From positions 1 through 64,000 of IMG/VR virus record IMGVR_UViG_3300005831_000060: a DNA stretch of 64,000 bases; one strand, given 5' to 3'. Shown here in pieces: positions 2,940 through 64,000 of the stretch; positions within the stretch are counted from its first letter, which is position 1; the number at the start of each line of letters is the position of its first letter. The translations under genes were made by a program, and so were the position numbers. The stretch comes from a virus. The notes beneath the pieces were generated by a model. It saw nothing but the letters and a program-made list of their open reading frames with translations, did no database searches and was not told the origin of the DNA.

Positions 2940-3794
2940 CTATGGTATTGCTATTCCGTTATAAATAAAATTAAGAGTGTTATAGTCAGTTGTTGATATA
3001 GCTGGAGAAAATATCTCTTCCCTACTAATTCCTGCTAGTGTGCCACCATTAAGATTCTCTTTTATCATTATAGTATTTTTATAGGTCGGAGTAAGCCTGG
3101 ACGATAAATAAGACATAGTTCTTTCAGCTGCAGTCCAGTAATAAGGACTACTACCATTATAGCTCCAGTTATTTGCAGTCCATACCTCGGGTAGAGAATA
3201 CGGATTACCGACATATGCATTCTTATTGAATATAGGTTCTATAAGTGCTGAGTAATCGATTATACCATCACAGAAATTATGTCTATTAAACACTCCTGGG
3301 TACTCTAGCACGTTACCAAATATATCTACTCCGGGTTGGCTATTAGATGCCGGTATCATTCCGACATTTCTATTAAATCCATTTTCTATAAAGTACATGG
3401 ATCCTCCAGTAGTTATATCTTTAGTAAATCCACTAGATGAACCATGAGTACCGTATACAGTGACATTATACCCAGAAGTTACATCTGGTATATAAACACC
3501 ATTTGATAATGTAAGATCCCAAAATACTCCGGCAGGAAATATAACAGAATCACCCACAACAGTAGGTGTAGTGGTACCATTAGTACCACACGATACAACT
3601 GTTACACCAGCTAGTGATGTAAATGAAATACTAGCACTACCATTAGATACCCCAGCTACTCCTGTTATATTAGCCTCTCCCCAATTAGAACCTTTTCTAA
3701 AAAACTTGTGTGTTGTAGAATTATATGTTCCTGGTATACTAGGAGGCCCAAACGGCCCCCTGTATAATATGTGTTTATCAATTTCTAATTGCAT
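2940..3794 (-). CDS. Tail/fibre-associated structural protein (284 aa)
   Basis: Gly, Ser, Thr and Tyr-rich beta-type protein lying one base from the 935-aa fibre gene and six bases from the 1075-aa fibre gene, so all three are co-transcribed. No domain is recognised. The N-terminus contains a YRGPFGPPSIPGTYN stretch and the middle has aromatic-rich strands (WTANNWSYNGSSPYYW). Position and composition suggest a fibre tip, receptor-binding or baseplate component. Confidence 0.55.
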   Translation of the reverse strand: MQLEIDKHILYRGPFGPPSIPGTYNSTTHKFFRKGSNWGEANITGVAGVSNGSASISFTSLAGVTVVSCGTNGTTTPTVVGDSVIFPAGVFWDLTLSNGVYIPDVTSGYNVTVYGTHGSSSGFTKDITTGGSMYFIENGFNRNVGMIPASNSQPGVDIFGNVLEYPGVFNRHNFCDGIIDYSALIEPIFNKNAYVGNPYSLPEVWTANNWSYNGSSPYYWTAAERTMSYLSSRLTPTYKNTIMIKENLNGGTLAGISREEIFSPAISTTDYNTLNFIYNGIAIP

Positions 3795-3800
3795 ATTGTA

Positions 3801-6800
3801 TTAGTTTAGCTGCCATATTCCTGGATGAACTTCTATCACCACATCTGGTTCTAGTGCTATCAATTTGGTATTAGGAGCGGATTCATTGGAATAGTAGACA
3901 TCTACATTATAGGTGGTTGAATTATTAATAGCTATTACAACCGGTTTCTCGCGTTGGTAATCTATTACCACATCTATATTAGAAGCGGCAATATCCATTG
4001 TAATTTCATACCTATCTACAGAGGTACCTATCGATAATGTAGTTGTTAATGCTGTTGTTGTAACTTCTACTACATTGTATTTCAAATTACCAATTCTCTT
4101 TATACCTATAGGTGTTACCTCGTAAATATACTGTTTATTGATAACTCTATGCCCTATATTAAATGCCCAATCAATACCTTCTGTCTCACCTATATATAAC
4201 TCGTACTCATCTCCAGGTGTAGAGAATCTATACGTCCAATTCAATTCATCTTCAAGTTCATCATATGCTTCTGTAGGAAGATCCGGGTACAAATCTAATT
4301 GCTGTGGAGTATTTCCTGTATGCAAGAACTGTACCCACGGCAACCATTGCTGCGCCATTCCATCCCTACCTCTAGCCCATAAATCAAAACTAGTAGTTCT
4401 ATCTACCCACTGTGTAGCTAATTGATACTTATGTTTATTTGTGTCAGCTCCTTGTTGGTTGAATAAGTATGAACTATCGATAGTTTCTATCTGCCACGAT
4501 CCATCTTTTGGTACATTACTAATAGTGGAATGTACTGTACCTAGGTCGTATAATCCCCTACTAATTAGATTATTAGCTGATAGTGATGAGAACCCTAGCG
4601 CTCTAGAGTATCTAAATTCATCCCATGGCTTGTCGTGTAGTCTATCTGCATTATCTGCGAAACGAGTTTTTATAGCAACCTTATCACCTCCACTATCCGT
4701 CCAATAGAATATGTATTTCATATTATTAGTACTCAATGAAGTTCCTAGCTCTGCTGTACTAGACAATCCAACTTCTTTTGAATCATGAGAACTATAGATT
4801 TGATCCCAGTTAAATAATTTACTAACATTATCAAATCCTATATTCCAGTTAATTCTATTTTGTTCTGTTACATGTAGGTCAGTATTCGTGGTATGTTCTT
4901 CGAATACAGATGTACTAACCGCATCTAGCAATTCTAACATAATATCCTTGGTCAGATATGTTACCTTACCAGAGTTAGAATTTCTACCCAGTACAAATGG
5001 TTCCGGGATATCTTCTATAGATGTTATAGCAACATCATACAATTCAACTAATTTATGCGCGCCGGGAGAAGTTCCTGTACCTGGTACTGTCCAGTTTTCT
5101 AAATACTCTCCGGTTATTACAACATCAGATCCAATAACTAATTTACCATCAGCACTTTTATAGATAGGTAAATCAACAATACTCACTGATTGTGTTAGCA
5201 GATTATCGAATACCTCAATACCTGTGTTAGTAGTTCTTAATTTTCTAGAGTTGTTATAAAACAGTTCTATGTTGGGAGTAGATCCTCCATTAAAGGCTAT
5301 CACTTTTGACCCATTCTGTGAGATATCAGAATATGTTGAGTAGTTAGTTAATTTGAAATCACTGCTATATCCATTTTTAGATAATGTGATAGATGGAGAA
5401 GTAGATTTAATGGTAAGATTACCTAGAGTCGATGAATTCTTTGTGGAATCACCAAACACTATAGAACCATTAGGATTTATAGTAATCGCATCTCCGACAG
5501 TATCTTCTGATATTTTAAACGAATCCCCTGCCCTAAATAGTAATTTGGAATTATTATTAGTGATATTTATAACAAACGCAGGACTAACAACACCAGTGGT
5601 AAATACCTTAATAACATCCGAACCAGACGAACCATTTATATTCAATGCAGTTCCTACTGTAGTGATATTAAGAGTTCCTGTCATCGAGTCACCTGTTATG
5701 TCTACAAATAGATCATCAGCTTGTGACTTAGTATAATAGTTGGATAGATCTATAGGGGTATCAGCAGGGTCTTGCACTGCCGACCATATACCACCTACTT
5801 TTTTTAGTACATAACCATCTGGCGCAAACTCCACATTATTGGCTACATCAGTTAGTTCATAGATGTATAAATCCACAGCACCGTCAAATGATGTGTTACC
5901 AGTAATATGCAAATCACCATGAATTGTAACTAGTTCTCCTACAGCATCTAATGATGCATCACCTAAAAGTATAGATCCGGCATATACATAACTATCTGTT
6001 AGTATAGGAAGTGTAGAATAATTATTAACCGACAAAACCTCATGCAAAGAAGTTTGATGAGGGTTGTTTAGATTTGCTACATGATTATTAAAAGCACTGA
6101 TACTTGCATAATATGTATCTGCAGTAGATTTAGTTAAGTAAATAGATAGATCCGGTTGTGGTAATGTAGAAACATCAGCGATGTTCCACTCACCATTTAC
6201 AACCCGTAATATTCCTCCTTCTATGCTAGGGTAAGCATTATCATTAACATCACTTAGTAATCGAAGTGGTATATTAGTGTTATCAGCACTAAGTATACCC
6301 ATGACTGTTAAGTTGTTATTAAACACTGTATTGCCAGTGAAAGTAATATCACCATTACTTCTCACTACATTAAGTACCTCACCTAGTTCTAATCCTAAAT
6401 CATCGTATCGTCTAAGACTAAAGTTAGATCCGACATTTCCTATTCCTGTCTCATCGTCTTCAAGCAAAAAAGAAAAGCGTAAATGGTTATTCTCCATTCT
6501 AAAATGGTGTTTTCCATTCACGCCAGTTCCTGCGTTAGATGTTACCCAATCACGGACAAACAACTCACCTCGCCCGGATAATGTTGCGCCCACTATATTA
6601 GCATAGTTCTTAAATACAGCAGTAGAGTTATCTTCATTACCACCAGTAACTTCAATACCAAATCCAACACTGCTTGTATTAGTGAATGATGCTGCAGCCC
6701 AGGCGTTTCCAGAAGTAGTTTCCACTACTGTAAATTTGTTTACAGCAGCGTTGGTTCCTAATGCAACCTTTCCCGACGTACTTATAAACAACCTATAGGC

Positions 6801-7028
6801 TGACTTGGTGGCATTCCAAACGACAAAGTCATACCCTAACGCAGAAGCTGATTTAAGCTGAATGACATCACTACCAGACTTTTTAAATTCTAATAATGAT
6901 GTCAACCCTATAGCCCCGATAACATCTAGCTCTAATACTGGATTACGATTATTTATTCCTACTTTTCCGCTGGTATTTGTATTATACAAATCTCCGGCCA
7001 GATTACTTTCCCAGTAAGTTAGTGCCAT
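3801..7028 (-). CDS. Long tail fibre with a pyocin-knob-like C-terminal region (1075 aa)
   Basis: Very long fibre-like protein. The N-terminal 100 residues (GKVGINNRNPVLELDVIGA) match the repetitive shaft style of phage fibres. Near residues 850-940 there is a stretch with the spacing of pyocin-knob domains (GSWQIETI, YQLATQWVDRTTSFDLWARG, WLPWVQFLHTGN), which in other phages bind surface glycans. The last 130 residues form a separate beta-rich tail. It is flanked by two further structural genes in one leftward operon. Family resemblance of the knob was judged by eye; fibre assignment is fairly secure. Confidence 0.7.
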   Translation of the reverse strand: MALTYWESNLAGDLYNTNTSGKVGINNRNPVLELDVIGAIGLTSLLEFKKSGSDVIQLKSASALGYDFVVWNATKSAYRLFISTSGKVALGTNAAVNKFTVVETTSGNAWAAASFTNTSSVGFGIEVTGGNEDNSTAVFKNYANIVGATLSGRGELFVRDWVTSNAGTGVNGKHHFRMENNHLRFSFLLEDDETGIGNVGSNFSLRRYDDLGLELGEVLNVVRSNGDITFTGNTVFNNNLTVMGILSADNTNIPLRLLSDVNDNAYPSIEGGILRVVNGEWNIADVSTLPQPDLSIYLTKSTADTYYASISAFNNHVANLNNPHQTSLHEVLSVNNYSTLPILTDSYVYAGSILLGDASLDAVGELVTIHGDLHITGNTSFDGAVDLYIYELTDVANNVEFAPDGYVLKKVGGIWSAVQDPADTPIDLSNYYTKSQADDLFVDITGDSMTGTLNITTVGTALNINGSSGSDVIKVFTTGVVSPAFVINITNNNSKLLFRAGDSFKISEDTVGDAITINPNGSIVFGDSTKNSSTLGNLTIKSTSPSITLSKNGYSSDFKLTNYSTYSDISQNGSKVIAFNGGSTPNIELFYNNSRKLRTTNTGIEVFDNLLTQSVSIVDLPIYKSADGKLVIGSDVVITGEYLENWTVPGTGTSPGAHKLVELYDVAITSIEDIPEPFVLGRNSNSGKVTYLTKDIMLELLDAVSTSVFEEHTTNTDLHVTEQNRINWNIGFDNVSKLFNWDQIYSSHDSKEVGLSSTAELGTSLSTNNMKYIFYWTDSGGDKVAIKTRFADNADRLHDKPWDEFRYSRALGFSSLSANNLISRGLYDLGTVHSTISNVPKDGSWQIETIDSSYLFNQQGADTNKHKYQLATQWVDRTTSFDLWARGRDGMAQQWLPWVQFLHTGNTPQQLDLYPDLPTEAYDELEDELNWTYRFSTPGDEYELYIGETEGIDWAFNIGHRVINKQYIYEVTPIGIKRIGNLKYNVVEVTTTALTTTLSIGTSVDRYEITMDIAASNIDVVIDYQREKPVVIAINNSTTYNVDVYYSNESAPNTKLIALEPDVVIEVHPGIWQLN

Positions 7029-7036
7029 ATGATTTA

Positions 7037-7639
7037 TTATGTTATGATTGTAATTGTAAAGGTAGTGAGACTAGGCACAGGATTACCCGCGAAGTATACA
7101 AAAACATTTATCTCTTTAGTCTGCACTCCAACATAGTTTATTTTATAGTTACTGAGAAATACTGTTGTGGCTTCCTCAGCAACTGCTACAGAGTCTACTT
7201 CTAGGCGTACCATGTCAACTATTTCTGGTCCCGAATATACCGCTCTAATATCACAAATATCGTTTTCATTCAATGAGAAAGGAGCCGTTGATAGCAGAGT
7301 ATTGTTTATAAATAGTGATACTCCTACACCTACTGGTAACTGAATTGGTTGTGTATAGTTAGTTGATACTACCGATGAACTACCAGCTTTCGAGCTAGAT
7401 AGTGATAGTTTGATAACTAGACTAAGTTTTTCAAAATCAATTTCCTCGTTACCCTCAACATACTCATCCAGGAAGTTTGCTATAGAAGAATAGTAACTTA
7501 ACGAATCAATCCATCCTTTTATATCTCTTGAATTATAGGTATATGCACCGTAATTTCCTACGCGAGCTCCTATTTCATTAATGGTCTTAGCTAATCCAAG
7601 TCCAACTAATCCTTCTACTTCTTGACTGTATTGTGACAT
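7037..7639 (-). CDS. Structural protein of unknown function (200 aa)
   Basis: The first 85 residues look helical and the rest beta-stranded. No known domain is recognised. Its start codon overlaps the stop of the upstream 326-aa gene by one base (shared base 7639), so the two are translationally coupled. By position between portal-proximal genes and fibres it may be a connector, baseplate or fibre-attachment protein. Confidence 0.5.
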   Translation of the reverse strand: MSQYSQEVEGLVGLGLAKTINEIGARVGNYGAYTYNSRDIKGWIDSLSYYSSIANFLDEYVEGNEEIDFEKLSLVIKLSLSSSKAGSSSVVSTNYTQPIQLPVGVGVSLFINNTLLSTAPFSLNENDICDIRAVYSGPEIVDMVRLEVDSVAVAEEATTVFLSNYKINYVGVQTKEINVFVYFAGNPVPSLTTFTITIIT

Positions 7640-8619
7640 TAGGCTAAGAAATTATGTGTTGTTCTGTAGTAATCAGTACCTTGTAAAATAAACTGAGCCT
7701 CTGCAAATCTAGACTGATTAGCGTAGTAATCAATCGATGTGTGCAGTGCTTTAGCATTAATGTATGGTGTACCGAAATTATTATCTGATTGTACAAAATC
7801 TATCACTGTATCGCGATATATCTTGTTGTATTGTGCCATCCAGAATATGTCCCTCCTTACCCATGGATTATATTCAAATGAGTAATTGATTATATCGCCA
7901 ACAGAAACTGTTGTAATCCATTTATTTATAGGATGCCACTGTACTGTGTTTTCTAATGTTAATGGATTAGCATTATCGACTAAGGCAACATACACTGTAC
8001 CTAATTCCGGGTTATCACCTAGATTAGTGTTAGTGGTATCCTGACATAAAAATCCTTTCTTAACGAAACCAGAACTAACCAAACCATCGCATATACCAAC
8101 ACTAAAGATACTATACCAACCATCTTTTGCTATCGAGTCATTCGATATAACAGCGGATGGAAGACCGTCCACCGGCAAGGCCGATTTCTGGCTGTTAAAG
8201 ACAGCTACGTCTGAAAAAGGTGTAAGTAGTTGCGAAGAGTTTAAAGTGTTAAATAGCGTGAAATTTGTGGCTCCTACAGGGATGTTAATGGTTCTTTCTA
8301 ATGGAGCATTCTTATAAATAAGTTTTGGGTTGTATTTCTTATTTAGTAGATTATCGATCTTACGAGGAGAATCCATTAATACTATAGACGATAAAATATC
8401 ACCAGTCAATGATATCCTGTGATAAAACAGAAAATCTATTTTAGCAATGATGCTTCCAGTTCCGGGAATAGGATTATCAATTGTTATCCTATTTAATGTT
8501 AGATCCGATCCTGAGTAAGCTATAAAAGCGCCCATATCACTAACTGCTATATCTAACATGCCGGCACTGATATCCATGTTGTTAGAATACTGTTGTCCTA
8601 TATACAGAGTATTTATCAT
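7639..8619 (-). CDS. Structural protein, connector/baseplate region (326 aa)
   Basis: I chose the ATG at 8619 (MINTLYIGQQ...), which follows the upstream stop at 8621 by one base. An earlier in-frame start at 8712 would overlap that gene by 92 bases. The protein contains a carbohydrate-module-like phrase around WYSIFSVGICDG and FVKKGFLCQDTTNTNLGD that is echoed in the neighbouring 313-aa protein (DGWYSLLV... HESTNAFVKCLI), so the two may be distant paralogues. Probable virion component; no enzyme motif. Confidence 0.55.
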   Translation of the reverse strand: MINTLYIGQQYSNNMDISAGMLDIAVSDMGAFIAYSGSDLTLNRITIDNPIPGTGSIIAKIDFLFYHRISLTGDILSSIVLMDSPRKIDNLLNKKYNPKLIYKNAPLERTINIPVGATNFTLFNTLNSSQLLTPFSDVAVFNSQKSALPVDGLPSAVISNDSIAKDGWYSIFSVGICDGLVSSGFVKKGFLCQDTTNTNLGDNPELGTVYVALVDNANPLTLENTVQWHPINKWITTVSVGDIINYSFEYNPWVRRDIFWMAQYNKIYRDTVIDFVQSDNNFGTPYINAKALHTSIDYYANQSRFAEAQFILQGTDYYRTTHNFLA

Positions 8620-8620
8620 A

Positions 8621-9562
8621 TTAGATAGTAAAATTGTTACTTGAAATAACTGTAGTCTTATCCGGACCAAACATTGTATGATACTCAAATGGTATCGTAT
8701 TGATAGTGTCAACAGCTTTTATAGGGTCTCCACTTTCTAAATAGGCTACAGCAGCTTCACGCATTGCTGTAATCTTAGTCAGTGCTGTCATAGCCATCTT
8801 ATCATTATACTCTTTAAAGCTAGTAGCTTGAATACATGGAAATATGAATGATTGTTTGATATTTCTAGTTAAAAGAAACTCACTACATATTCTTAAGATT
8901 GCATCATTCACGGACAGACTATTTGTTGATGTAGCATATACAGACCAGTTTTCATCTGTCATAGACGTCCAGTTAGTCACTACAGTCTCTGGTCCATCAC
9001 CGGTATTAGCTATTAGACATTTTACAAATGCATTAGTTGATTCATGGTACAGAACGTCTCCGACTACATATGGTGTATTAATATTCCATAATGGTACATC
9101 TGTTACCAATAATGAATACCATCCATCTGTAGAAATTGGAAATCCAGTATTCTCTGATACAGAGGCTGTATACGGGTATGACAGTCTTTTACTTCCGTAT
9201 GTGGTATTTATATTTGCTTCGTAAGTAAATATTGTGATATCATAATTTACAGTTACTACACTAGATGAAGCTTTAATTAATGTCTTTCTAACTTTCTCGA
9301 TATTAAAGTCAATTTCAGATGCTACTGTCTGTGTGGTAGTTAATATCTCCAACGGCGAAACAGTCTGCAATTCCATATCAACGACATTGAAATGAAAACT
9401 CAATCTACGAATGTACCCAACAGGAATATCCTTATTGATGTTTACCTTTACATTATCTCCGTTGTTGATTAGGTATGCTGTCACAACATCTTTAGGAGAG
9501 GGCATTGTAACGCCACTCTCCTGATATAATTGATTGAATATTTCAACTTCTTTTACTTTCAT
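8621..9562 (-). CDS. Structural protein, connector/baseplate region (313 aa)
   Basis: Follows the portal gene by two bases in the same operon. The central part (residues 145-195) has the pattern DGWYSLLVTDVPLWN / YVVGDVLYHESTNAFVKCL, similar to the 326-aa neighbour. The C-terminal third is helical and ends with AVDTINTIPFEYHTMFGPD. No catalytic residues are evident. Likely a head-tail connector or tail protein because it is immediately portal-proximal; this is inference from order only. Confidence 0.55.
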   Translation of the reverse strand: MKVKEVEIFNQLYQESGVTMPSPKDVVTAYLINNGDNVKVNINKDIPVGYIRRLSFHFNVVDMELQTVSPLEILTTTQTVASEIDFNIEKVRKTLIKASSSVVTVNYDITIFTYEANINTTYGSKRLSYPYTASVSENTGFPISTDGWYSLLVTDVPLWNINTPYVVGDVLYHESTNAFVKCLIANTGDGPETVVTNWTSMTDENWSVYATSTNSLSVNDAILRICSEFLLTRNIKQSFIFPCIQATSFKEYNDKMAMTALTKITAMREAAVAYLESGDPIKAVDTINTIPFEYHTMFGPDKTTVISSNNFTI

Positions 9563-9564
9563 AA

Positions 9565-11883
9565 TTAGATGTTGTTTTTAGGTTCTGCTGACTGACCTGG
9601 ATTACCCTCTTCAGCCGACATATATAATTGTTCTCTTTCCAACTGAGCTATCTGACGTTTAACCTCAATCTGAGCATCATTAAACTCGCGCATATCCTTA
9701 CGTTTCTTCTCTTCCATATCATACTTAGAATTCTGTTCTGATTCTTTGAGTTGAACCTCTTTAGCTTTGAGTTGTCTATCTTCAGAAGATACACTATCAA
9801 GTTGTTGTTTAGCTTTCGAAAGTTCGTTTGTAAGTTGGTCAACTTGTTGTTTAAGTTGCTCGGCTGCTTGAGTAGCCTGTGTAAGTTGGTTATTTTCAGT
9901 CTTCTTGATAAGCCATGCTTTATCAATAATCTGCTTAACTTCTGTAGCAGAGTCAGATAGTATGATATGAATAATTGTGTTTGGATCTAGCATGCCTGCT
10001 ACAATTAAATCCTTAGCTACTTTCTTCATATCTGCAAGTTTACCGGCATCCTTAGATGAGTACGTAACATTGATAGAGTAGTCTGAGAAACAAAGATTCT
10101 CTGGTGCTATATTAAATACATAAGACTCAGCTCCCATAATATAGGCACCTTTCTTACCTTTAGCATAACATATCTTAGCGGTATTCAAAAGAGATGTTAG
10201 CATCCTCTTATGATTAGTTCTAATTAAGTCGAATAGATCCGCATTAATCATAAGAGATTGTTTGATTCCCTGCTTAACATTATCTACGGCATCGCGTTCT
10301 GCAATCTGCCCAAGCATTTGTGGGTTAGTAGCTGCAATTAAATCTGCTTGACGTTCCATGGTTTTTAACATACCATCGATAGCGGTCAGAGCTTGACCAT
10401 TTACTGAATCATCAAATGATCCATAGTGATTAAATAGTTGAGCTCCCGGTTCTGTTGGGTCAATTAATTCGAACCCATTCTTCTTAGCCGCGATAAACTT
10501 CATTAATCGTTCCATGAAGTTACTTCCCAATTGCTTAGGAATACCAGCAATATTTATTCTAGTTCCTGGAACACCTGAGTTAGCGATTAAGTTATCTCTG
10601 TAAAATAAAGTTAAGTCGTATACATCTTGTAGATCTTTCATAGCTCCCACTATAGAGAATGGTTTACCATTTCTATCATTGTATACAATACCACCATATG
10701 TGAATCCACAATCAAATGGTCTAGTTTCTGACCTAGTTATATGAGTACTTTTACCACAGTTTACATATACGCTATTAGCTATCCTAACTCCTTCGTACCT
10801 ATCTGTTCTCCATCCCCACTGTCCTACATCACCTTTATACCCATCTGTAGTTGTCTGATCTTCAATCTCTTCCGCATCAATCCTAACTTTGTTTAAAGCC
10901 ATCCATTCGACATGGTATACTTCAACTACATCAAGATTACTGTAAGACTTCTGTCCATTAACCGGATCATCAGCACCATAGTACCTATCAAGATCCCTAC
11001 CACTTCTAAGAGAGCGAGCCGTCTTAATTCTAGTTCTATCTGAGAATAATACCTTCTGCTGATCGTCATCCATATATTTACCATACTTACGAAGAAGTTC
11101 TTTTCTAGTTAAGTATTCGCGATGCACTATAGCATCACAGGTATCGATATACTGACTATTTGTGTTCTTATTATAGAAAATGTTTTCTGGTTTGATTATC
11201 TCTACGATAGGATCGGCCCCAACTCTGTCGCAATACACTCTATAGTAACTCTCTCCAGTTACCATTAAATCATGAGCAACTTGTTTTAGCTTCTGTGCTA
11301 AGTCCATTGGAGTATCCGACTCAAAGAATTTAAGTAAGTCCTGTCCAGCTATCTCAAAATCAGATAGATAGTTCTGACCAAACTTTTCTTGTAGTTTATT
11401 AGTAGCCTGCGTTAGATCTGTAACAGGCATACCACCATCAGGATTACCTCCGGCAATAGCCATTAGATTAGTTCTAACAAAGTTATCAATGATACTATTT
11501 AATTGTTCTAGATATCTTTTCTTCTTTACCTCGGCCGCTATATCGATTGTTTTATCGTCGATTACTGTTGCTTTGTACGTGAAGTTTTCTTCTACCATAC
11601 TTCCAACAAGTGCGTCAATACGAGGTTTAATTAAGTTAGTAAAGTTTAACTTAGATGGTGTACCAATACCAAAGTTCTCGGTCAGATACTTGAACTCCTC
11701 GGTGTCGCGCATACCATGGTAATAGTTACGATATGTACGAATGTACTTCTTCTCGCGTACTAAGTTGTTAATATAAAAGTCAATATTATTCTTAAGATAT
11801 TCTTCCGACATCTTTTCATTCTCGGTGTAATGAATATCTTCCAAGTACCCGTCACTATTGTACGGAGCCGTTTGTGTTGACAT
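9565..11883 (-). CDS. Portal protein (772 aa)
   Basis: Large protein with the overall plan of a dodecameric portal: an N-terminal helical and clip-like region (residues 20-180, including PRIDALVGSMVEENF), a central stem/wing section with DLYDL-type helices (residues 400-560, including TERQADLIAATNPQ), and a long charged C-terminal coiled coil (about residues 670-750, rich in Gln, Lys and Glu) like a barrel extension. It lies between the GroES-like gene and connector-type genes, and the terminase is in the same leftward block. It would form the DNA entry channel of the head. Assignment rests on size, architecture and neighbourhood. Confidence 0.75.
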   Translation of the reverse strand: MSTQTAPYNSDGYLEDIHYTENEKMSEEYLKNNIDFYINNLVREKKYIRTYRNYYHGMRDTEEFKYLTENFGIGTPSKLNFTNLIKPRIDALVGSMVEENFTYKATVIDDKTIDIAAEVKKKRYLEQLNSIIDNFVRTNLMAIAGGNPDGGMPVTDLTQATNKLQEKFGQNYLSDFEIAGQDLLKFFESDTPMDLAQKLKQVAHDLMVTGESYYRVYCDRVGADPIVEIIKPENIFYNKNTNSQYIDTCDAIVHREYLTRKELLRKYGKYMDDDQQKVLFSDRTRIKTARSLRSGRDLDRYYGADDPVNGQKSYSNLDVVEVYHVEWMALNKVRIDAEEIEDQTTTDGYKGDVGQWGWRTDRYEGVRIANSVYVNCGKSTHITRSETRPFDCGFTYGGIVYNDRNGKPFSIVGAMKDLQDVYDLTLFYRDNLIANSGVPGTRINIAGIPKQLGSNFMERLMKFIAAKKNGFELIDPTEPGAQLFNHYGSFDDSVNGQALTAIDGMLKTMERQADLIAATNPQMLGQIAERDAVDNVKQGIKQSLMINADLFDLIRTNHKRMLTSLLNTAKICYAKGKKGAYIMGAESYVFNIAPENLCFSDYSINVTYSSKDAGKLADMKKVAKDLIVAGMLDPNTIIHIILSDSATEVKQIIDKAWLIKKTENNQLTQATQAAEQLKQQVDQLTNELSKAKQQLDSVSSEDRQLKAKEVQLKESEQNSKYDMEEKKRKDMREFNDAQIEVKRQIAQLEREQLYMSAEEGNPGQSAEPKNNI

Positions 11884-28020: not shown

Positions 28021-29250
28021 TTATTAATTACTAATCATTGTAATGAGGCTATTGCTATCATATAAAGATTACTGAACAACGGGTATCCTAACTAGATGAC
28101 CCAGTTCAAGCATTCTCGGATACACAAATAAAACGTCGGGATAAATTTGCTACCGTTGATAATCAATAATGGTAGGACGGAGGTGGCGGAACCTCAACTT
28201 TACGGATCATAAACCGTGACAAACCTGTGGGGCTACTGTGTTCTTATGATAGTTAGTAAATGCGATCAATACTATCATTATGGAATCCTAATCGCTTGGA
28301 TAAGAACAAGTTAGTGCAGACTATAAAATCAGGTAAACGTGTGGTAGTATGGTAGACTACGACATGCCATAACCAACAACGAGTCCTAATAAGACATTCC
28401 AACGTTGTAACATATGCTTAATGGGCAGGAATACCATTGACATGACCGAAATACAAGCACACGACATATCTCCTTCTCTATTAATAGAGTTAGTGGGATT
28501 AGATCGGTAGCGTATACCACGGCGTATTATTCTTTGAATACTCTTGAGCAGGAGTAATGGTGTGTGACGACATCATTGGTAAGGATAATATAAAACTAAC
28601 CATGACACGGACAACCGGTCCGGAGTGAATCAAACGGTACAGCTTTGTCAAGAGTTGGAGTCTTCATAGTGTGATTTTTGGTTAATTGATTAATTGTTTT
28701 TGAGCCAGCTACCCTCGCGCAATTGGGTGGTTGGCTTTTTTATTTGGGCTCATACTTTTAAATGTTATAGTATTAATGCATCCGATGCGATGTGTTAGTA
28801 GTTGATCCACACGGTGTTAGAGGAGTGATTCTCTGATGCTGTTGGGTCGACGTACTAGTGAGTGCCAATGACTACACACATTATTCTCTCGCTACGAGAG
28901 TCTACGATATTTGATTGCTGTCTGTATGGGGAGTCGTCTCCTAGTACCAGCACAGATCACCTGAACTCATGTAAATGATTGTTACAAATCGGGCCTTAGG
29001 GTTAAAGAACCGGGAGTAATACCATAATTAATCATACCATTGTGAGTATGGATCACTTAGTTTAGAGTCCTTAGGGATGCTCAGAGCACTAAGTATGGTT
29101 ATGGGTGAGGGTGTAAAACATTTACTTGCTGTCTGTATCAATCACCTTAAGGTTAGTATTGGTATGATGAGTGAGTTGCGTTGGTTAGTTGGTCCTTTTG
29201 GGATTTGCTTTTTTCGTGTCGACCTAATAGTTACTTGTTGAAGTGCGCCT
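28021..29250 (+). ncRNA. 1.2-kb gene-free stretch of structured RNA
   Basis: No convincing reading frame on either strand. Many local helices are visible: GTATCC/GGATAC (28083/28118), CTACC/GGTAG (28150/28171), GTTCTTAT/ATAAGAAC (28240-28247/28300-28307) enclosing GATAGT/ACTATC, ACAACG/CGTTGT (28377/28402), CGGAC/GTCCG (28608-28621), CTCTCG/CGAGAG near 28890 and ACTTAGT/ACTAAGT (29055/29090). A terminator divides it at 28703-28741. A short loop at 28204-28214 resembles a CAT anticodon arm but no full tRNA forms. Probably several small RNAs. Confidence 0.45.
28703..28741 (+). terminator. Intrinsic terminator inside the gene-free stretch
   Basis: AGCCAGCTACCC pairs with GGGTGGTTGGCT across a short loop and is followed by six or more Ts. 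Its presence shows that the upstream non-coding segment is transcribed rightward. Confidence 0.8.
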
Positions 29251-44063: not shown

Positions 44064-44145
44064 TAATCGGGGATGACTGGTTTTGACAGCATTGTCAGTG
44101 GGTATTAGTCCGTGCAAGATGATGGTAGTCCATCGAACTATAGAG

Positions 44146-44190
44146 GACAACGTTCGCGTAATGTCTTTCGCTACGGCTCTTGCAGCTTAA
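44146..44190 (+). other. tmRNA tag reading frame
   Basis: Fourteen codons from GAC give DNVRVMSFATALAA and then TAA. The resume codon could be this GAC or the preceding GAG (44143). The ALAA end matches known protease-degron tags. Confidence 0.7.
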
Positions 44191-44365
44191 TATGGCGATT
44201 GGGTAGCTGTGATCCTAGAAACAGAAAATCAGCAAGTTGTTTTCCTTGTTTTCTCAAAATAAGGTGGTGGAGCTCCAGCTGTAAACAGTTGGTCCTAGGT
44301 GCTGGACGTCATTCCAGCTACGCACGTAAGTAGCACTAATATTACCGGATGTTTGGACGCGGGTT

Positions 44366-44817
44366 TAAAAGGAATCGGACCCACTGAGTAGGAATACTCA
44401 GTTAAATAATTGGAAGAATTGCTGGAAAGCTAAATAAATTAAATAGTTGGGACTATGTAGAGCCCATTAAAGTGAAGCAGTACATACTGAACGCTATTTA
44501 ATTTACATGTCAATCAGCAGCCGAGCCTCATGGAAGAATGAGGAAGGTTCAGAGACTAAGGACACTAAGGTGAGCCTAGAGCATCCGACACCCAGAACGG
44601 GTGATGATATAGTCCAACCCTTAACGAAAGTTAAGTATTTATTAATTTTGCTATTTCTTGTAAAAATTCTACTGTTTGGTTATGTGTTAATGTGTTCTTC
44701 ATCAGATTTATTACAGTAGTTACATGTACAATTAATTGTTTTCATATCTTTATGTTTTATAATGTATAATAGCATTATAATAATAAATATGGAACTGTGC
44801 GAAATTATTTTTTAAGG
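44366..44817 (+). mobile_element. Group I intron inserted in the tmRNA T-loop
   Basis: The upstream exon ends GGGTT and the internal guide GACCC (44378-44382) pairs with it with a U-G wobble at the splice site. A P7-type pair is visible (cAGAGACTA near 44550 and GATATAGTCC near 44606), and the last intron base is G (44817). No intact homing endonuclease is present; a short minus-strand frame with CTCNYC near 44745 could be a remnant. Confidence 0.85.
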
Positions 44818-44860
44818 CGATTCCCGCCATCTCCACTAAGTAATTAATAATCAGACGTTT

Positions 44861-46777: not shown

Positions 46778-46922
46778 TGTACTATAGCTCAGTTGGTTAG
46801 AGTAGTGGTTAAAACACCACCGTCGACGATAAGTTGTTTGAAGTCTTGAAGTACAAGAGACTAGACTGACAGTATACGTGCCTGGGAGGGCGGGGTCGGG
46901 GGTTCAAGTCCCTCTAGTACAT
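46778..46922 (+). tRNA. tRNA with a ~70-nt insertion (isotype unknown)
   Basis: Perfect 7-bp acceptor TGTACTA/TAGTACA, D-arm GCTC/GAGT, and a variable-plus-T-arm block GGGTC GGGGG TTCAAGT CCCTC identical to that of tRNA-Ile at 42090. Between them lies a GTGGT/ACCAC hairpin, then about 70 extra bases with an AGTCTTG/CAAG helix. No full group I core seen. Confidence 0.55.
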
Positions 46923-55793: not shown

Positions 55794-57221
55794 ATGTTTC
55801 AACCAAATTTTTGTACAGCGACTGACTTTTATAAGTTTGGTCACTGGTGTCAATATCCAATGGGTATGGACAGTATACATTCGTATTGTGAAGCACGTGA
55901 AGGGGCATTGTTTCCTGAAATCGTGTTTGCCGGTATTGTACCATTACTGAAGGACTTCTTTGTTGGTCAAGTGATCACAAGGGAGAAGATCGAAGAAGCA
56001 GCATTTATTGTTGGTGGTATGGGTGGATTTCCTGAATACTTTAATCGGGCTATGTGGGAACATATACTTGATAAGTATGATGGTAAACTTCCACTAGCTA
56101 TCAAAGCTCTTCCAGAAGGTACTGTTGTACCTGCTTCGACACCTTTATTCACTATAACTAACCTTGGTGGAGCAATTACTCAACCATTGGTAAACCACGC
56201 AGAGACCCTATTATTACATATATGGTCTGCTACTACAGTAGCAAGTGCGTCTCGTTACATTAAGAAAGAGATCTTGGATAAGTGGGCCGCTAAAACCGGT
56301 ACTCCTGCACTGACAATATGGCAGTTACATGATTTTGGATTCCGTGGTGTAAGTAGTTGGCAAACCGCAGTATACTCTGGTATTGGTCACTTAATCTCTT
56401 GTAGAGGAACTGACACATCAGATGCTGTACGAGGTATTTGTCATTACTATGATACTAAAGAAATCCATGGTAACTCTGTATGGGCCACTGAACATTCGGT
56501 TGCAACATCCTATGGACCTGGTACAGGTGAAGTTGACTACGTACTAGCTCAACTTAATAGGGCGCCTGATAATGCAATTGTATCATTAGTAATGGATAGT
56601 TACGATACATTTAATTTTGCTAAGAACGTCATGGGTCATCCGCTAGTAATGGCAAAGGTAAAGGCTCGGGCCGGAAGAACAGTAGTTCGCCCAGATAGTG
56701 GTGAACCGGTATCAGTAAACTTGCGTGTGTTGGATATCCTTGGTAATGTATATGGTTTCTCGATAAATGATAAGGGTTACAAAGTCCTTGATCATAATGT
56801 TGGAGTTCTTCAAGGAGATGGTATGGATTACTTAACCATTGATAAGTTGTTTGAAGGTATAGTTACGATAGGTAATTGGTCTTCTGATAACCTAGTGGTT
56901 GGATCAGGCGGTGGTTTGTTACAGAAATGGAACAGAGATACTCTACGATTCGCTATTAAAGCATCCCATGGCTCTATTGATGGAGTTGGATTTGATATCT
57001 ACAAAGATCCTATTACTGCTAATACCGGTAATGAAACCAAAGCTTCCAAAAGAGGTTTACTAAAGGTTTGTAGGGTTGTTAATGGGTATACTACCATATC
57101 ATCAAGTAGCTGCTCACCGACTATGTTTAATTCGTATGTGGATGATATGAAACCCTTGTTTAACACAGGGGAACTTCTAATCACCCCAGATTTCGATGAT
57201 GTAAAACGTCGTGCATTATGA
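55794..57221 (+). CDS. nampt: Nicotinamide phosphoribosyltransferase (475 aa)
   Basis: Makes NMN from nicotinamide and PRPP. Family signatures are visible in order: TDFYKFGHWCQYP (residues 9-21), LHDFGFRGVSS, GTDTSDAVRG, ATEHSVATSYGPGTGE with the catalytic His, LVMDSYDTFNFAKNV, and RTVVRPDSGEPV, the PRPP-binding loop. Length (475) matches full-size NAMPT. The next gene, overlapping by four bases, encodes the NMN adenylyltransferase, giving a two-step nicotinamide to NAD route. Confidence 0.93.
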   Translation: MFQPNFCTATDFYKFGHWCQYPMGMDSIHSYCEAREGALFPEIVFAGIVPLLKDFFVGQVITREKIEEAAFIVGGMGGFPEYFNRAMWEHILDKYDGKLPLAIKALPEGTVVPASTPLFTITNLGGAITQPLVNHAETLLLHIWSATTVASASRYIKKEILDKWAAKTGTPALTIWQLHDFGFRGVSSWQTAVYSGIGHLISCRGTDTSDAVRGICHYYDTKEIHGNSVWATEHSVATSYGPGTGEVDYVLAQLNRAPDNAIVSLVMDSYDTFNFAKNVMGHPLVMAKVKARAGRTVVRPDSGEPVSVNLRVLDILGNVYGFSINDKGYKVLDHNVGVLQGDGMDYLTIDKLFEGIVTIGNWSSDNLVVGSGGGLLQKWNRDTLRFAIKASHGSIDGVGFDIYKDPITANTGNETKASKRGLLKVCRVVNGYTTISSSSCSPTMFNSYVDDMKPLFNTGELLITPDFDDVKRRAL

Positions 57222-58321
57222 GTTTGTTAGTCAAACTTATTGAAGCAAAAAAAGCCTTTTCCATAATAGAGTTGGGTTGCGGTGTCCCCGTGGCCCACTC
57301 TCTTATGTTACAGCGTGGTTCAAGTAAAGTACTTACCATGGCTTGTTGTCCTTATGGTAGAGATTACCAATCTGAGATGACTGGCCTGGATTTAGGAGCT
57401 GTTAGATCAGTTTCTGTTGAAATGGAACAAGAGTTACTAAAGAACTTATATGATGATTCTCATGGAGAGGATTTTCATATAGCTTACTCGATGCAGTCAG
57501 GATCCACAGCTAGGGTTAGCCATGGTTATATTGGAATTTGTTGCGGCGAATATAGTGCAATCTACCATGTGACTCTTGGTCAAGAAATGAGTAAAGACAT
57601 TGCAGGTAAGTGTATGGTATCTATCGTAGAAGATATTATAGAGTATCATATACTGAGTGGTAATATGAGTACTGTTGGGAAAGATGGTAAAACATCATTC
57701 ATAGATGGTGCTTGGTCTTGTCATGATTTGAATAAAGAATCGGTTACGTTTGATCCATCGATAATGCCGCATAACTTTGGTACTTTTTGTTGGGCTGCCG
57801 GACAATGGCATCGTGTTGTCGATATACTCAGACAACTTGAAGGTGGTATGTGTCTTATTAAAGGAAGTTTTAACCCTCTACATGATGGGCACAAACAATT
57901 GATGGGTGCAGCAATGGACTTTACCAATATACCTTTAATGTGTATGACTTCTCATACGTTGGATAATAAGAATACGGCACTACATGAATTAGTTGAACGT
58001 GCACAAAAAATGCCCGGAGCTATATGTGTGATTGACAGTCATAATGTCTATATGAGAGAACTTATTGCTGATCTAAAACAGTGGGATAACGGTCCTAAAA
58101 GGACTATCCATTTGTTTATGGGTATTGATGTATTCTCTAAATTCGATGTTAACGATGTATCCGAGGAGGTTAAAATCCATGTATATCATCGTGTATGCGA
58201 AGTAGGTAACATATCATTCCATGACAGTATGTACTCAACATTGTCATCTACATCGATAAGAGAAGCTATAAAAGAAGCAACAATAAAACAACTCAATGAA
58301 ACAGATACACCAATTGTTTAG
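57218..58321 (+). CDS. CinA-like domain fused to NMN adenylyltransferase (367 aa)
   Basis: Residues 1-150 resemble the CinA C-terminal domain, an NMN amidohydrolase fold (IIELGCGVPVAHSLMLQRGSSKVL, FHIAYSMQSGSTARVSHGYIGIC). Residues 211-360 are a nucleotidyltransferase with GSFNPLHDGH (216-225) as the HxGH ATP site and SSTSIREA near 345-352 as the ISSTxxR motif, so this part joins NMN and ATP to make NAD. Coupled by ATGA to NAMPT. A CinA-like half could be inactive or deamidate NMN. Confidence 0.85.
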   Translation: MSLLVKLIEAKKAFSIIELGCGVPVAHSLMLQRGSSKVLTMACCPYGRDYQSEMTGLDLGAVRSVSVEMEQELLKNLYDDSHGEDFHIAYSMQSGSTARVSHGYIGICCGEYSAIYHVTLGQEMSKDIAGKCMVSIVEDIIEYHILSGNMSTVGKDGKTSFIDGAWSCHDLNKESVTFDPSIMPHNFGTFCWAAGQWHRVVDILRQLEGGMCLIKGSFNPLHDGHKQLMGAAMDFTNIPLMCMTSHTLDNKNTALHELVERAQKMPGAICVIDSHNVYMRELIADLKQWDNGPKRTIHLFMGIDVFSKFDVNDVSEEVKIHVYHRVCEVGNISFHDSMYSTLSSTSIREAIKEATIKQLNETDTPIV

Positions 58322-61364: not shown

Positions 61365-64000
61365 ATGGCTGTAATAGAACAAAAGTTCATAGAGACAGAA
61401 GGTGGTATTCGTAAGAATATCGATCAGGATAGCATGCCGTTAGCCTTGGATATCCTTCAACGTGGTCTTTATGCATTCCCAATTCAATCAACTATTAGAG
61501 AATTGACTTCCAATGCCTATGATGCAATCAAGGAACGGGATGTTGCTCTCGCAATTATTCGCGGTGATTCGGCTGTAGAGAACCACTTCGATGTAACTAA
61601 ACAAGATAGCATCTATCATTCGTCGGGGTGGGATCCTAGTTATTTCGATCCAACATGGCTATCAACTGATCCATTAGTTCATATTTATTATGAAGAGGGT
61701 GTATCGAAGGATATATTAAGGATTGTTGATAATGGTGTAGGCCTTGGTAAACAGAGACTTATAGGCTATTTTCAACTCAATAAAATGTAAAATTCAAATT
61801 AATTAACTATAATATAGGTACACAAATACTTATATTATGAAATCAGGTGTATATACTATCACAAATACTGTTAATGGAAAAATGTACGTAGGGTCAGCTC
61901 AACGATATTTTAGTTCTAGATGGTCAGATCACAGACGTAAATTACGATCAAATACTCATTATAATGATCATTTACAACGTTCTTGGAACAAGTACGGAGA
62001 GGAATCATTTAGATTTGAGATTCTCGAGACTTATCCCCCAGAATATTGTTTACAAATGGAGTACTATTGGGTTAATTTGTTAGATACCGTTAGTAATGGT
62101 TATAATGCTGATTATCCTGGTCTGGGAACTACTGGGTTTAGGTTTGGTAAATCCACTAAAGCCAAAATGTCTGCTAAAGCAAAATTAAGAGATCAGTCTC
62201 ATTTACATACTCAAGAAGTATGGAAAAAGATTAGTGAATCTTCTAAAACTGCACAACTTGGTAATACAAATAGAAGAGGAACTGGTAAGTATGGAAAGTG
62301 CGAGAAATATGATTCTAAATGGAATTTAGTGCATACATATGACAATCCATATCAAGCTTTCAGAGATCTTGGACTAAATCATGCATCACATATTATCAGA
62401 TCTTCTATCAACAGTACAACATGTAAAGGATTTCATTGGGTAGTATACAACAAAGAAGGTAATTTAATAGAATAGTTGAGTATAAATTCCGTTAAACGGG
62501 GAAACTCCTGAAGAGGACAATCCCGTGCTAAATCAGTTAGAAATAATTGTAAATGCCGAACGACTAGAGATGACGCTTACTGGGTAAAGCCAAAGCTATA
62601 AAGTTCTCCACGAAAGCGGGACACTGCTTGCGGTTTGCAAGTTAAAGATATAGTCTACTCTACAACTATAACAAGATAAATTGTAGAAAGTATAGGATAA
62701 AGAGCCTATATAAATAATAAAATGTATTCTACAAAGCGTGCGAATAAAGATGCTTTGGGGAAATGGGGTAAACACAATCAATTTTTCTAACTATAATATA
62801 TTTGGTACGATTTTACAATTAATCCAAATAAATAGTTATGGTATCTTATAATGATGAATTTAAGAATATTGACACAGAAGCTAAAGCATATTTTCTAGGT
62901 TTCTTTCATGCTGATGGTAGTTTGCATTACTCTAAAATTGCATATAGCAGTTGTAGTAAGTTAAAACTAAGTATTAAAGATGAGGAAATTATTAAACGAT
63001 TTGAAAGTGAATTTCCATTCTTTAATATATCATATAGCGAGGATAGTTATGTGTGGAATAATGAGGAACGATTTAATAACAAGGTAGTATTGAGGTCTTA
63101 TAATAAAGAGCTTTATACTGATTTAGTTAATATTGGTGTAAAATCGGTATTATTAGATTTACCTGAAGAATTATTTATTCATTATATCAGGGGTTATATA
63201 GATGGCGATGGTTGTTATTCAAAGCAAATTACAGATGGAAAACCATATTGGAATATGACTTTGTGTATTACTGAACCTGAAATAATACCACTACAAGACT
63301 TTTTTAACAGTTATGGTATTCATTCAACAGTTAGACAACAGGGGAAAATATATGTACTTAGAGTGCGTAGAAAAACTGATGTTGAATTACTGGTTGGTCT
63401 ATTATACTCTGATTCATCATGGTACTTAAAAAGAAAAAAGGCTTTAGTCGATGAAATCCTAAGCCCCATTAAAATCGCGTGAACTCACGGAAAGCCCTCC
63501 CTTGAAGGGTAATCGTGATCCAAGCTTTGCAGGAATGCATTGAAGGAGCAGAGACTAACGTATGGAGTCCAGAACGGACAGTAAAACGACACGAGCGCGC
63601 GACACCCTGGTTTAGGGTGATGACATAGTCCGAACATCATACTATGGTAAAGTATGAGAATTAAAGGATAAAGAGCCTTTAAGATAACAAAGTGTTAGGT
63701 AGTAAAGTAGCTCTATCATTGAATGTTGACTCTTTTAGGGTAATCAACAGATATAATGGTAAAAAGTTCAAATTCGACGTCTATTTAGACAAAGTGGACC
63801 CTGTAACTCCCAAAATAAGTGGTGGAAAAGTAAATGAGTATTTACAGTTAACAGATGATTGTATAGCTTATTACGAAGAAACCTCGGAAAAGAATGGGTT
63901 AGAGGTTCAGGTTGAAATTAAAAAGCATAATAAGAAGTTGTTATTTGAGGCTATACAGTCTCAGTTAATGTACCTTCCTAATATCAAAGTATACACTAAA
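61365..64000 (+). CDS. rIIA: rIIA-like GHKL ATPase, three exons, 3' end beyond the window
   Basis: Exons 61365-61781, 62725-62769 and 63695-64000 join in frame to give 256+ residues. The GHKL boxes are ELTSNAYDA (46-54) and DNGVGL (122-127), then after splicing YSTKRANKDALGKWG|LGSKVALSL, the rIIA-type glycine loop. The two introns flank the 15-codon second exon that carries the STK motif. rIIA proteins influence lysis inhibition and exclusion in T4-like phages; the partner rIIB, if present, would lie past the edge. Confidence 0.85.
61782..62724 (+). mobile_element. Group I intron 1 of rIIA, GIY-YIG gene in the P1 loop
   Basis: The exon end ACTCAAT pairs with the guide GTTGAGT (62475-62481), a U-G wobble marking the splice site. 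A P7-type AGACTAG...GATATAGTC pair is visible at 62565/62648. Ends with G at 62724. The guide lies directly after the GIY-YIG stop, so the whole gene sits in loop L1. The 3' tail GGATAAAGAGCCT is nearly identical to intron 2. Confidence 0.85.
61837..62475 (+). CDS. GIY-YIG homing endonuclease in intron 1 (212 aa)
   Basis: GIY-YIG core: GVYTITNTVNGKMYVGSAQ (residues 4-22), SSRWSDHRRKL with catalytic Arg, and LQMEYYWVNLLD with the Glu. The linker carries NUMOD-like DNA-binding units (KSTKAKMSAKAKLRDQ and DNPYQAFRDLGL...GFHWVVY), as in I-TevI-type enzymes. It would cut an intronless rIIA to spread the intron. Confidence 0.9.
   Translation: MKSGVYTITNTVNGKMYVGSAQRYFSSRWSDHRRKLRSNTHYNDHLQRSWNKYGEESFRFEILETYPPEYCLQMEYYWVNLLDTVSNGYNADYPGLGTTGFRFGKSTKAKMSAKAKLRDQSHLHTQEVWKKISESSKTAQLGNTNRRGTGKYGKCEKYDSKWNLVHTYDNPYQAFRDLGLNHASHIIRSSINSTTCKGFHWVVYNKEGNLIE
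62770..63694 (+). mobile_element. Group I intron 2 of rIIA, LAGLIDADG gene in the P1 loop
   Basis: The exon end TGGGGT pairs with the guide GCCCCA (63463-63468) with a U-G wobble at the splice site. That guide lies within the 3' end of the LAGLIDADG gene, so the gene is inside loop L1. P7-type AGAGACTA and GACATAGTCC occur at 63551/63623. Intron ends G at 63694. Confidence 0.88.
62838..63482 (+). CDS. LAGLIDADG homing endonuclease in intron 2 (214 aa)
   Basis: Two LAGLIDADG motifs, YFLGFFHADGS (about residues 14-24) and HYIRGYIDGDGC (about 114-125), so one chain forms both halves of the active site. It ends inside the intron guide, which overlaps coding sequence. It would cut the intronless rIIA site, independent of the GIY-YIG gene. 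Confidence 0.9.
   Translation: MVSYNDEFKNIDTEAKAYFLGFFHADGSLHYSKIAYSSCSKLKLSIKDEEIIKRFESEFPFFNISYSEDSYVWNNEERFNNKVVLRSYNKELYTDLVNIGVKSVLLDLPEELFIHYIRGYIDGDGCYSKQITDGKPYWNMTLCITEPEIIPLQDFFNSYGIHSTVRQQGKIYVLRVRRKTDVELLVGLLYSDSSWYLKRKKALVDEILSPIKIA

Follow-up and report, generated by a model that had tools for sequence, protein, structure and literature searches.

The stretch of DNA analysed here (the window, 64,000 nucleotides) belongs to a 66,750-base IMG/VR virus record and carries a tmRNA gene whose T-loop is interrupted by a group I intron. The locus has the following features:

44069-44365, + strand: tmRNA exon 1, from the acceptor 5' strand to the second T-loop base
44069-44075, + strand: acceptor stem 5' strand GGGGATG, 7 bp with CATCTCC at 44828-44834
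44103-44109, + strand: helix P2 5' strand TATTAGT, 7 bp with 44335-44341
44121-44140, + strand: pseudoknot PK1, GATGG/CCATC (5 bp) and TAGT/ACTA (4 bp), pseudoknotted
44146-44190, + strand: tag reading frame DNVRVMSFATALAA ending at a stop, read from GCAGCTTAA
44335-44341, + strand: helix P2 3' strand ACTAATA, paired with 44103-44109
44359-44363, + strand: T-stem 5' strand GCGGG, 5 bp with CCCGC at 44823-44827; its bases are shared with intron P1
44366-44817, + strand: group I intron, 452 nt, after the second T-loop base (T55), with terminal G
44373-44382, + strand: internal guide AAUCG-GACCC (P10 + P1), complementary to all ten bases of GGGUU-CGAUU
44383-44635, + strand: catalytic core P2 to P9, helix strands paired
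44646-44723, - strand: HNH endonuclease C-terminal remnant, decayed and antisense, VTTVINLMKNTLTHNQTVEFLQEIAK against the cr113_1 HNH C-terminus
44818-44838, + strand: tmRNA exon 2, with the remaining T-loop, T-stem, acceptor 3' strand and A73; CCA not encoded

Exon 1 starts at 44069 with GGGGATGACTGGTTTTGACAG, the usual tmRNA 5' end, and positions 44818-44838 read CGATTCCCGCCATCTCCACTA, where exon 2 proper is 44818-44835 and CTA at 44836-44838 occupies the CCA position. Encoded CCA is also absent from the other tRNA genes of the window, with which the missing CCA of the tmRNA agrees. When the exons are joined, the 7-bp acceptor GGGGATG/CATCTCC includes the alanine identity pair G3.U70, and the T-arm across 44365/44818 becomes GCGGG-TTCGATT-CCCGC with a 7-nt loop. 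The tag has an ALAA end and small residues before the stop; its resume codon would be GAC, by likeness to the GGC AAC start in the related phage contig L263. The initial annotation had described a phage tmRNA here, and the intact acceptor, T-arm, PK1, P2 and tag, together with phage genes on the contig, bear this out.

The intron matches the Rfam group I model RF00028 end to end at 44357-44636 (76.3 bits, gathering cut-off 50, E 1.4e-17), and the alignment includes P3, P4, P6, P7, P8, P9 and a P7.1-like insertion. The minimum free energy fold of the core also gives P2, P4, P6, P8 and P9, and the pairing of P2, P8 and P9 is kept with different bases in L263 and in the crAssphage cr6_1. A U.G pair lies at the 5' splice site in P1, and the chance of a perfect 10-bp guide pairing within the first 25 nt alone is about 0.004. 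Boundaries are supported by P1/P10 and, independently, by relatives with and without the intron. The earlier reading from the letters alone proved exact in its exon and intron limits (44069-44365, a 452-nt insert, 44818-44838), and its group I assignment, U-G wobble, terminal G and P7-like pairs all held in this comparison; the exon-guide pairing, given there as GGGTT with GACCC, extends to the full 10 bp, and the break between the second and third T-loop bases (TT/CGATT) agrees with the joined arm and with the empty-site relatives.

About 180 A+T-rich nt separate P9 from the intron end. On the antisense strand of this segment, VTTVINLMKNTLTHNQTVEFLQEIAK matches the HNH C-terminus of crAssphage cr113_1 with a score of 64, reached by 0 of 1000 shuffles, and that of contig L378 with a score of 55; its place and orientation are those of the intact HNH genes in the cr6_1 and L378 introns. 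An overlapping antisense frame matched the HNH N-terminus about as well (score 60), so that with such a short remnant one of the two matches must be chance; the C-terminus is preferred because it alone fits the cr6_1/L378 position, and the N-terminal match was set aside. No intact homing endonuclease gene was found in or beside the window intron, which has this remnant only, whereas relatives have intact HNH or LAGLIDADG genes.

The covariance search that had been proposed as a check succeeded in one half: the group I core was matched, so that the absence of such a match, named beforehand as refuting, did not occur, but RF00023, the tmRNA model, made no call on the unspliced window locus. ARAGORN made none on the joined window exons. 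Exons of equivalent kind in related phages do pass the RF00023 cut-off, and ARAGORN also misses the intron-less tmRNAs of contigs L333 and L334, which score 89-90 bits with RF00023, so its silence on the window tmRNA is weak evidence.

Portal protein and terminase genes lie on the contig. The terminase is nearest to those of Crassvirales (23-35% identity), a kinship that points to a host among the Bacteroidota. Besides two more group I introns (RF00028), the window holds at least 18 tRNA genes. No SmpB gene was found in the contig, and the phage tmRNA presumably uses host SmpB and proteases.

Pattern scans of viral contigs in IMG/VR found a tmRNA interrupted after T55, with both junctions visible, in 16 more contigs: L263, L033, L274, L277, L278, L280, L283, L285, L373, L375, L377, L378, L379, L380, L381 and L382. 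L280 and L283 are identical in the compared stretches and may be one phage. Records of 354.8, 90.7 and 68.6 kb are included, the rest being below 10 kb; viral status follows the IMG/VR classification, and L263 additionally shows phage-family genes. In L374 only the core and the 5' junction are visible. Because the patterns were derived from the window and favour this site and guide, the number of contigs does not measure frequency. RF00023 scores exceed the cut-off in L382 (77.9), L379 (72.0), L375 (69.6), L381 (68.8) and L376 (51.4), and RF00028 scores in L373, L374, L375 and L377-L381 (70-104 bits). In L375, L379 and L381 an RF00023 tmRNA (69-72 bits) adjoins an RF00028 intron (70-71 bits), all over the cut-off, and ARAGORN calls the joined tmRNA in L263, L278, L375 and L382. 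Judged by these matches, intron-form tmRNAs prove widespread in phages. An exact scan of the viral contigs with the window's own exon gave no match, and no tmRNA was found in the SPFH-neighbour relatives L004-L012. Matches with the T-loop TGCGATT were rejected, being ordinary tmRNAs and not introns.

The same tmRNA occurs without interruption, GACAGGGGTTCGACTCCCCTCACCTCCAC, in two contigs, L333 and L334, with the T-loop joined exactly at the intron site. In the L277-type contigs, exon 2 is immediately followed by an HNH gene of opposite orientation (6/6 of those extending there). Within this phage group the introns are 99.6-100% identical and the HNH gene beside the tmRNA is mostly above 99% (the exception being L278, 93%), whereas differences in the tmRNA exon reach 10%. 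Between L277 and L280, for example, 31/393 positions differ in exon 1 (92.1% identity), but only 1/223 in the intron (99.6%) and 1/530 in the HNH gene (99.8%); L280 and the intron-less L333 differ at 7/393 (98.2%). As the identities of exon, intron and HNH gene disagree, intron and HNH gene have moved more recently than the tmRNAs diverged, and recent homing is indicated in the L277-type group. Structural constraint on the intron could add to its high identity but would not explain that of the HNH gene. The association suggests that the intron-less tmRNA is cut by the neighbouring HNH enzyme. In L333/L334, a GIY-YIG-like endonuclease gene stands where the intron-bearing relatives have the HNH gene.

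Published crAssphage genomes carry related arrangements. In cr6_1 (NC_055894) an intron scoring 96.7 bits occupies the same T-loop position and contains an antisense HNH gene with 43% identity to the L277 HNH. This tmRNA is permuted, with its 5' half GGGGCATTATGGTTTTGACAGC downstream of the 3' half. The base preceding exon 2 is A and not the expected G, which makes splicing of cr6_1 uncertain. The tmRNA of cr4_1 (NC_055893) is also permuted, and its group I intron lies after T60, the last T-loop base, with a different guide. Related crAssphages have RF04321 permuted tmRNAs or an SsrA annotation. The RF04321 two-piece tmRNA of crAss-like phages is also a phage tmRNA, with T-loop introns in cr6_1 and cr4_1, but its halves are reordered, whereas the window gene has the ordinary unpermuted order. 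The permuted-plus-intron form is absent from Table 3 of PMC11915505. The permuted tmRNAs of cr6_1 (L363, NC_055894 36000-41500) and cr4_1 (L364, NC_055893, 1622-2510) are unannotated; the former has a RAGATH-7-associated RNA immediately upstream and the latter an antisense HNH-type gene. The permuted tmRNA of cr113_1 (L369, NC_055896, 1850-2418) has no intron and a changed T-loop, TATCGTAT; beside it lies an intact HNH gene of this family, and the site may be resistant to homing.

The initial annotation had described tmRNA introns as reported in a few bacteria. This understates them: PMC11915505 reports 883 unique bacterial intron-form sequences, whose introns all lie within the T-loop and fall on four sub-sites, and its position 3, which from the 1-8 numbering used there appears to correspond to the site after T55, is represented there only by sequences of the class Bacteroidia. 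Like the window intron, these bacterial introns are of group I, interrupt the T-loop, have U.G at the 5' splice site and end in G, and some carry homing endonuclease genes (PMC11915505); the tmRNA intron of C. botulinum was described as self-splicing (PMC2729099). They are bacterial genes, whereas the window gene and its relatives are phage genes. The intron covariance model of PMC11915505 was, by its account, applied to bacterial genomes; the paper includes 79 phage tmRNAs, and no intron form from a phage is mentioned in its main text. Further searches of the open-access literature found no case of a phage tmRNA intron. The phage-encoded intron-form tmRNAs are apparently an unreported set, T-loop introns in bacterial tmRNAs being already known. 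Strict junction patterns found no bacterial counterparts at this site in 391 genomes of the class of a 'Bacteroidetes bacterium' or in 395 genomes of the class of a Prevotellaceae genome, negatives that bound exact-pattern copies only. BLAST with the window intron in such genomes retrieved tRNA-Asn introns instead. These anticodon-loop introns of Bacteroidota are likewise group I introns in a tRNA-like gene, but at a different site and in a separate tree clade.

A group I core sequence is shared with introns of phage protein genes (Dulem virus 41 polymerase, Vibrio phage terminase, T4 td type), that of the Dulem virus 41 DNA polymerase having about 80% identity to the window intron over 148 core positions. 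Unlike these, the window intron sits in a gene for a functional RNA and has a guide that fits the T-loop. A tree of 161 core columns, with P1 and guide left out, places the window intron with L374, L378, L377, L380, L382 and a phage polymerase intron (UFBoot 76). L263, L277 and L280 fall apart from these, near L375, L379, L381, cr6_1 and cr4_1, and L373 pairs with a psbA intron (96). At least two intron invasions are likely but, the tree supports being moderate, not proven. A first tree had put the window intron closest to a polymerase intron alone; this placement was dropped, as the added phage tmRNA introns enclose the window copy.

Taken together, the locus very likely represents a phage tmRNA with a self-splicing, mobile group I intron and a decayed HNH gene, spliced for tmRNA function; it is a real and probably functional example, from a phage, of the intron-form tmRNA class. 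We infer self-splicing, splicing-dependent aminoacylation, homing through HNH or LAGLIDADG enzymes and use of host SmpB. Before splicing, the guide would pair with both T-loop halves, and two transesterifications would excise the intron and join GGGTT to CGATT. From the pairing, formation of the T-arm, addition of CCA and charging with alanine would take place only after splicing, and the tmRNA would presumably then be served by host SmpB and proteases. The intron appears mobile, as in related phages it accompanies homing endonuclease genes (HNH, LAGLIDADG) whose products probably cleave tmRNA genes that lack the intron. As its HNH gene is reduced to a fragment, the window copy would now be passively maintained.

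The initial annotation had suggested that the intron ties ribosome rescue to splicing. This stands insofar as the T-arm cannot form before splicing, but its regulatory sense is unsupported. In its regulatory form, the intron would be a switch whose splicing efficiency (GTP, Mg2+, folding, translation state) times the appearance of active tmRNA in infection. The T-stem 5' strand is locked in P1 before splicing, so that active tmRNA needs splicing, and introns occur at this site in many phages; close relatives nevertheless lack the intron, its distribution tracks homing genes and a conserved regulatory domain beyond the core was not seen, which makes a switch improbable. Slightly less probable still is a dead tmRNA, a relic whose intron no longer splices: the silence of RF00023 and ARAGORN, the decayed HNH gene and the A+T-rich tract after P9 would suit it, but core helices, guide, acceptor pairs and tag frame are intact, and neutral decay would not preserve them. 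That the split arose in assembly or binning, or that the resemblance is due to chance, is conceivable for a single metagenomic contig but can practically be dismissed: the covariance E-value speaks against it, and the structure recurs in many independent contigs as well as in two crAssphage genomes already published.

Beyond the preferred reading of a functional, spliced phage tmRNA, it may be proposed, at somewhat under even chances, that phage T-loops are a recurrent landing site for group I introns of two to three lineages (at least two, probably three), with several endonuclease types and in both tmRNA orders, and a reservoir for the Bacteroidia introns. If so, the rare Bacteroidia introns at this sub-site derive from phages, and a permuted tmRNA with an intron needs both splicing and two-piece processing. 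The crAssphage genes that combine permutation with an intron would represent a gene form so far unreported, and one present in abundant gut viruses. If the introns are phage-borne and mobile, phages carry the invasion into ribosome-rescue genes, and the phage's own rescue RNA depends on RNA splicing. Phage tmRNAs are seldom studied, and interrupted ones are missed by automated tools. Since one phage tmRNA exists in both empty and occupied alleles, homing, splicing and any fitness cost can be tested directly.

Several observations concern the surroundings of these loci. Clp-type ATPase and M20-like peptidase genes lie a few kb from the tmRNA in both L263 and L277. In the 62.9-kb contig L265, a tmRNA 3' end without a 5' half (11746-11764) resembles the attachment site of an integrated element. 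In the related 175-kb phage contig L004, several tRNAs at 3587-10966 have unusual anticodon loops (gaag, taaa, aa), and a cta anticodon also occurs. Hatchet ribozymes are found in the window at 28196-28334 (+ strand, 77.2 bits) and about 1.7-1.9 kb upstream of the tmRNA loci of cr114_1 and cr115_1 (L365 469-597, L368 611-749). A window tRNA gene at 46778-46922 (+ strand) has about 70 extra bases, which ARAGORN gives as an anticodon-loop intron but which look more like a very large variable region; they are not group I. At about 61365-64000 (+ strand), two group I introns (RF00028, 62424-62686 and 63399-63658) appear to interrupt a GHKL/ATPase-like gene that by eye resembles rIIA, and a GIY-YIG and a LAGLIDADG endonuclease gene accompany them. 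At 55794-58321 (+ strand), a nicotinamide phosphoribosyltransferase gene precedes one of cytidylyltransferase-like (NMNAT-like) type, and the two may serve NAD+ salvage in the phage as a pair.
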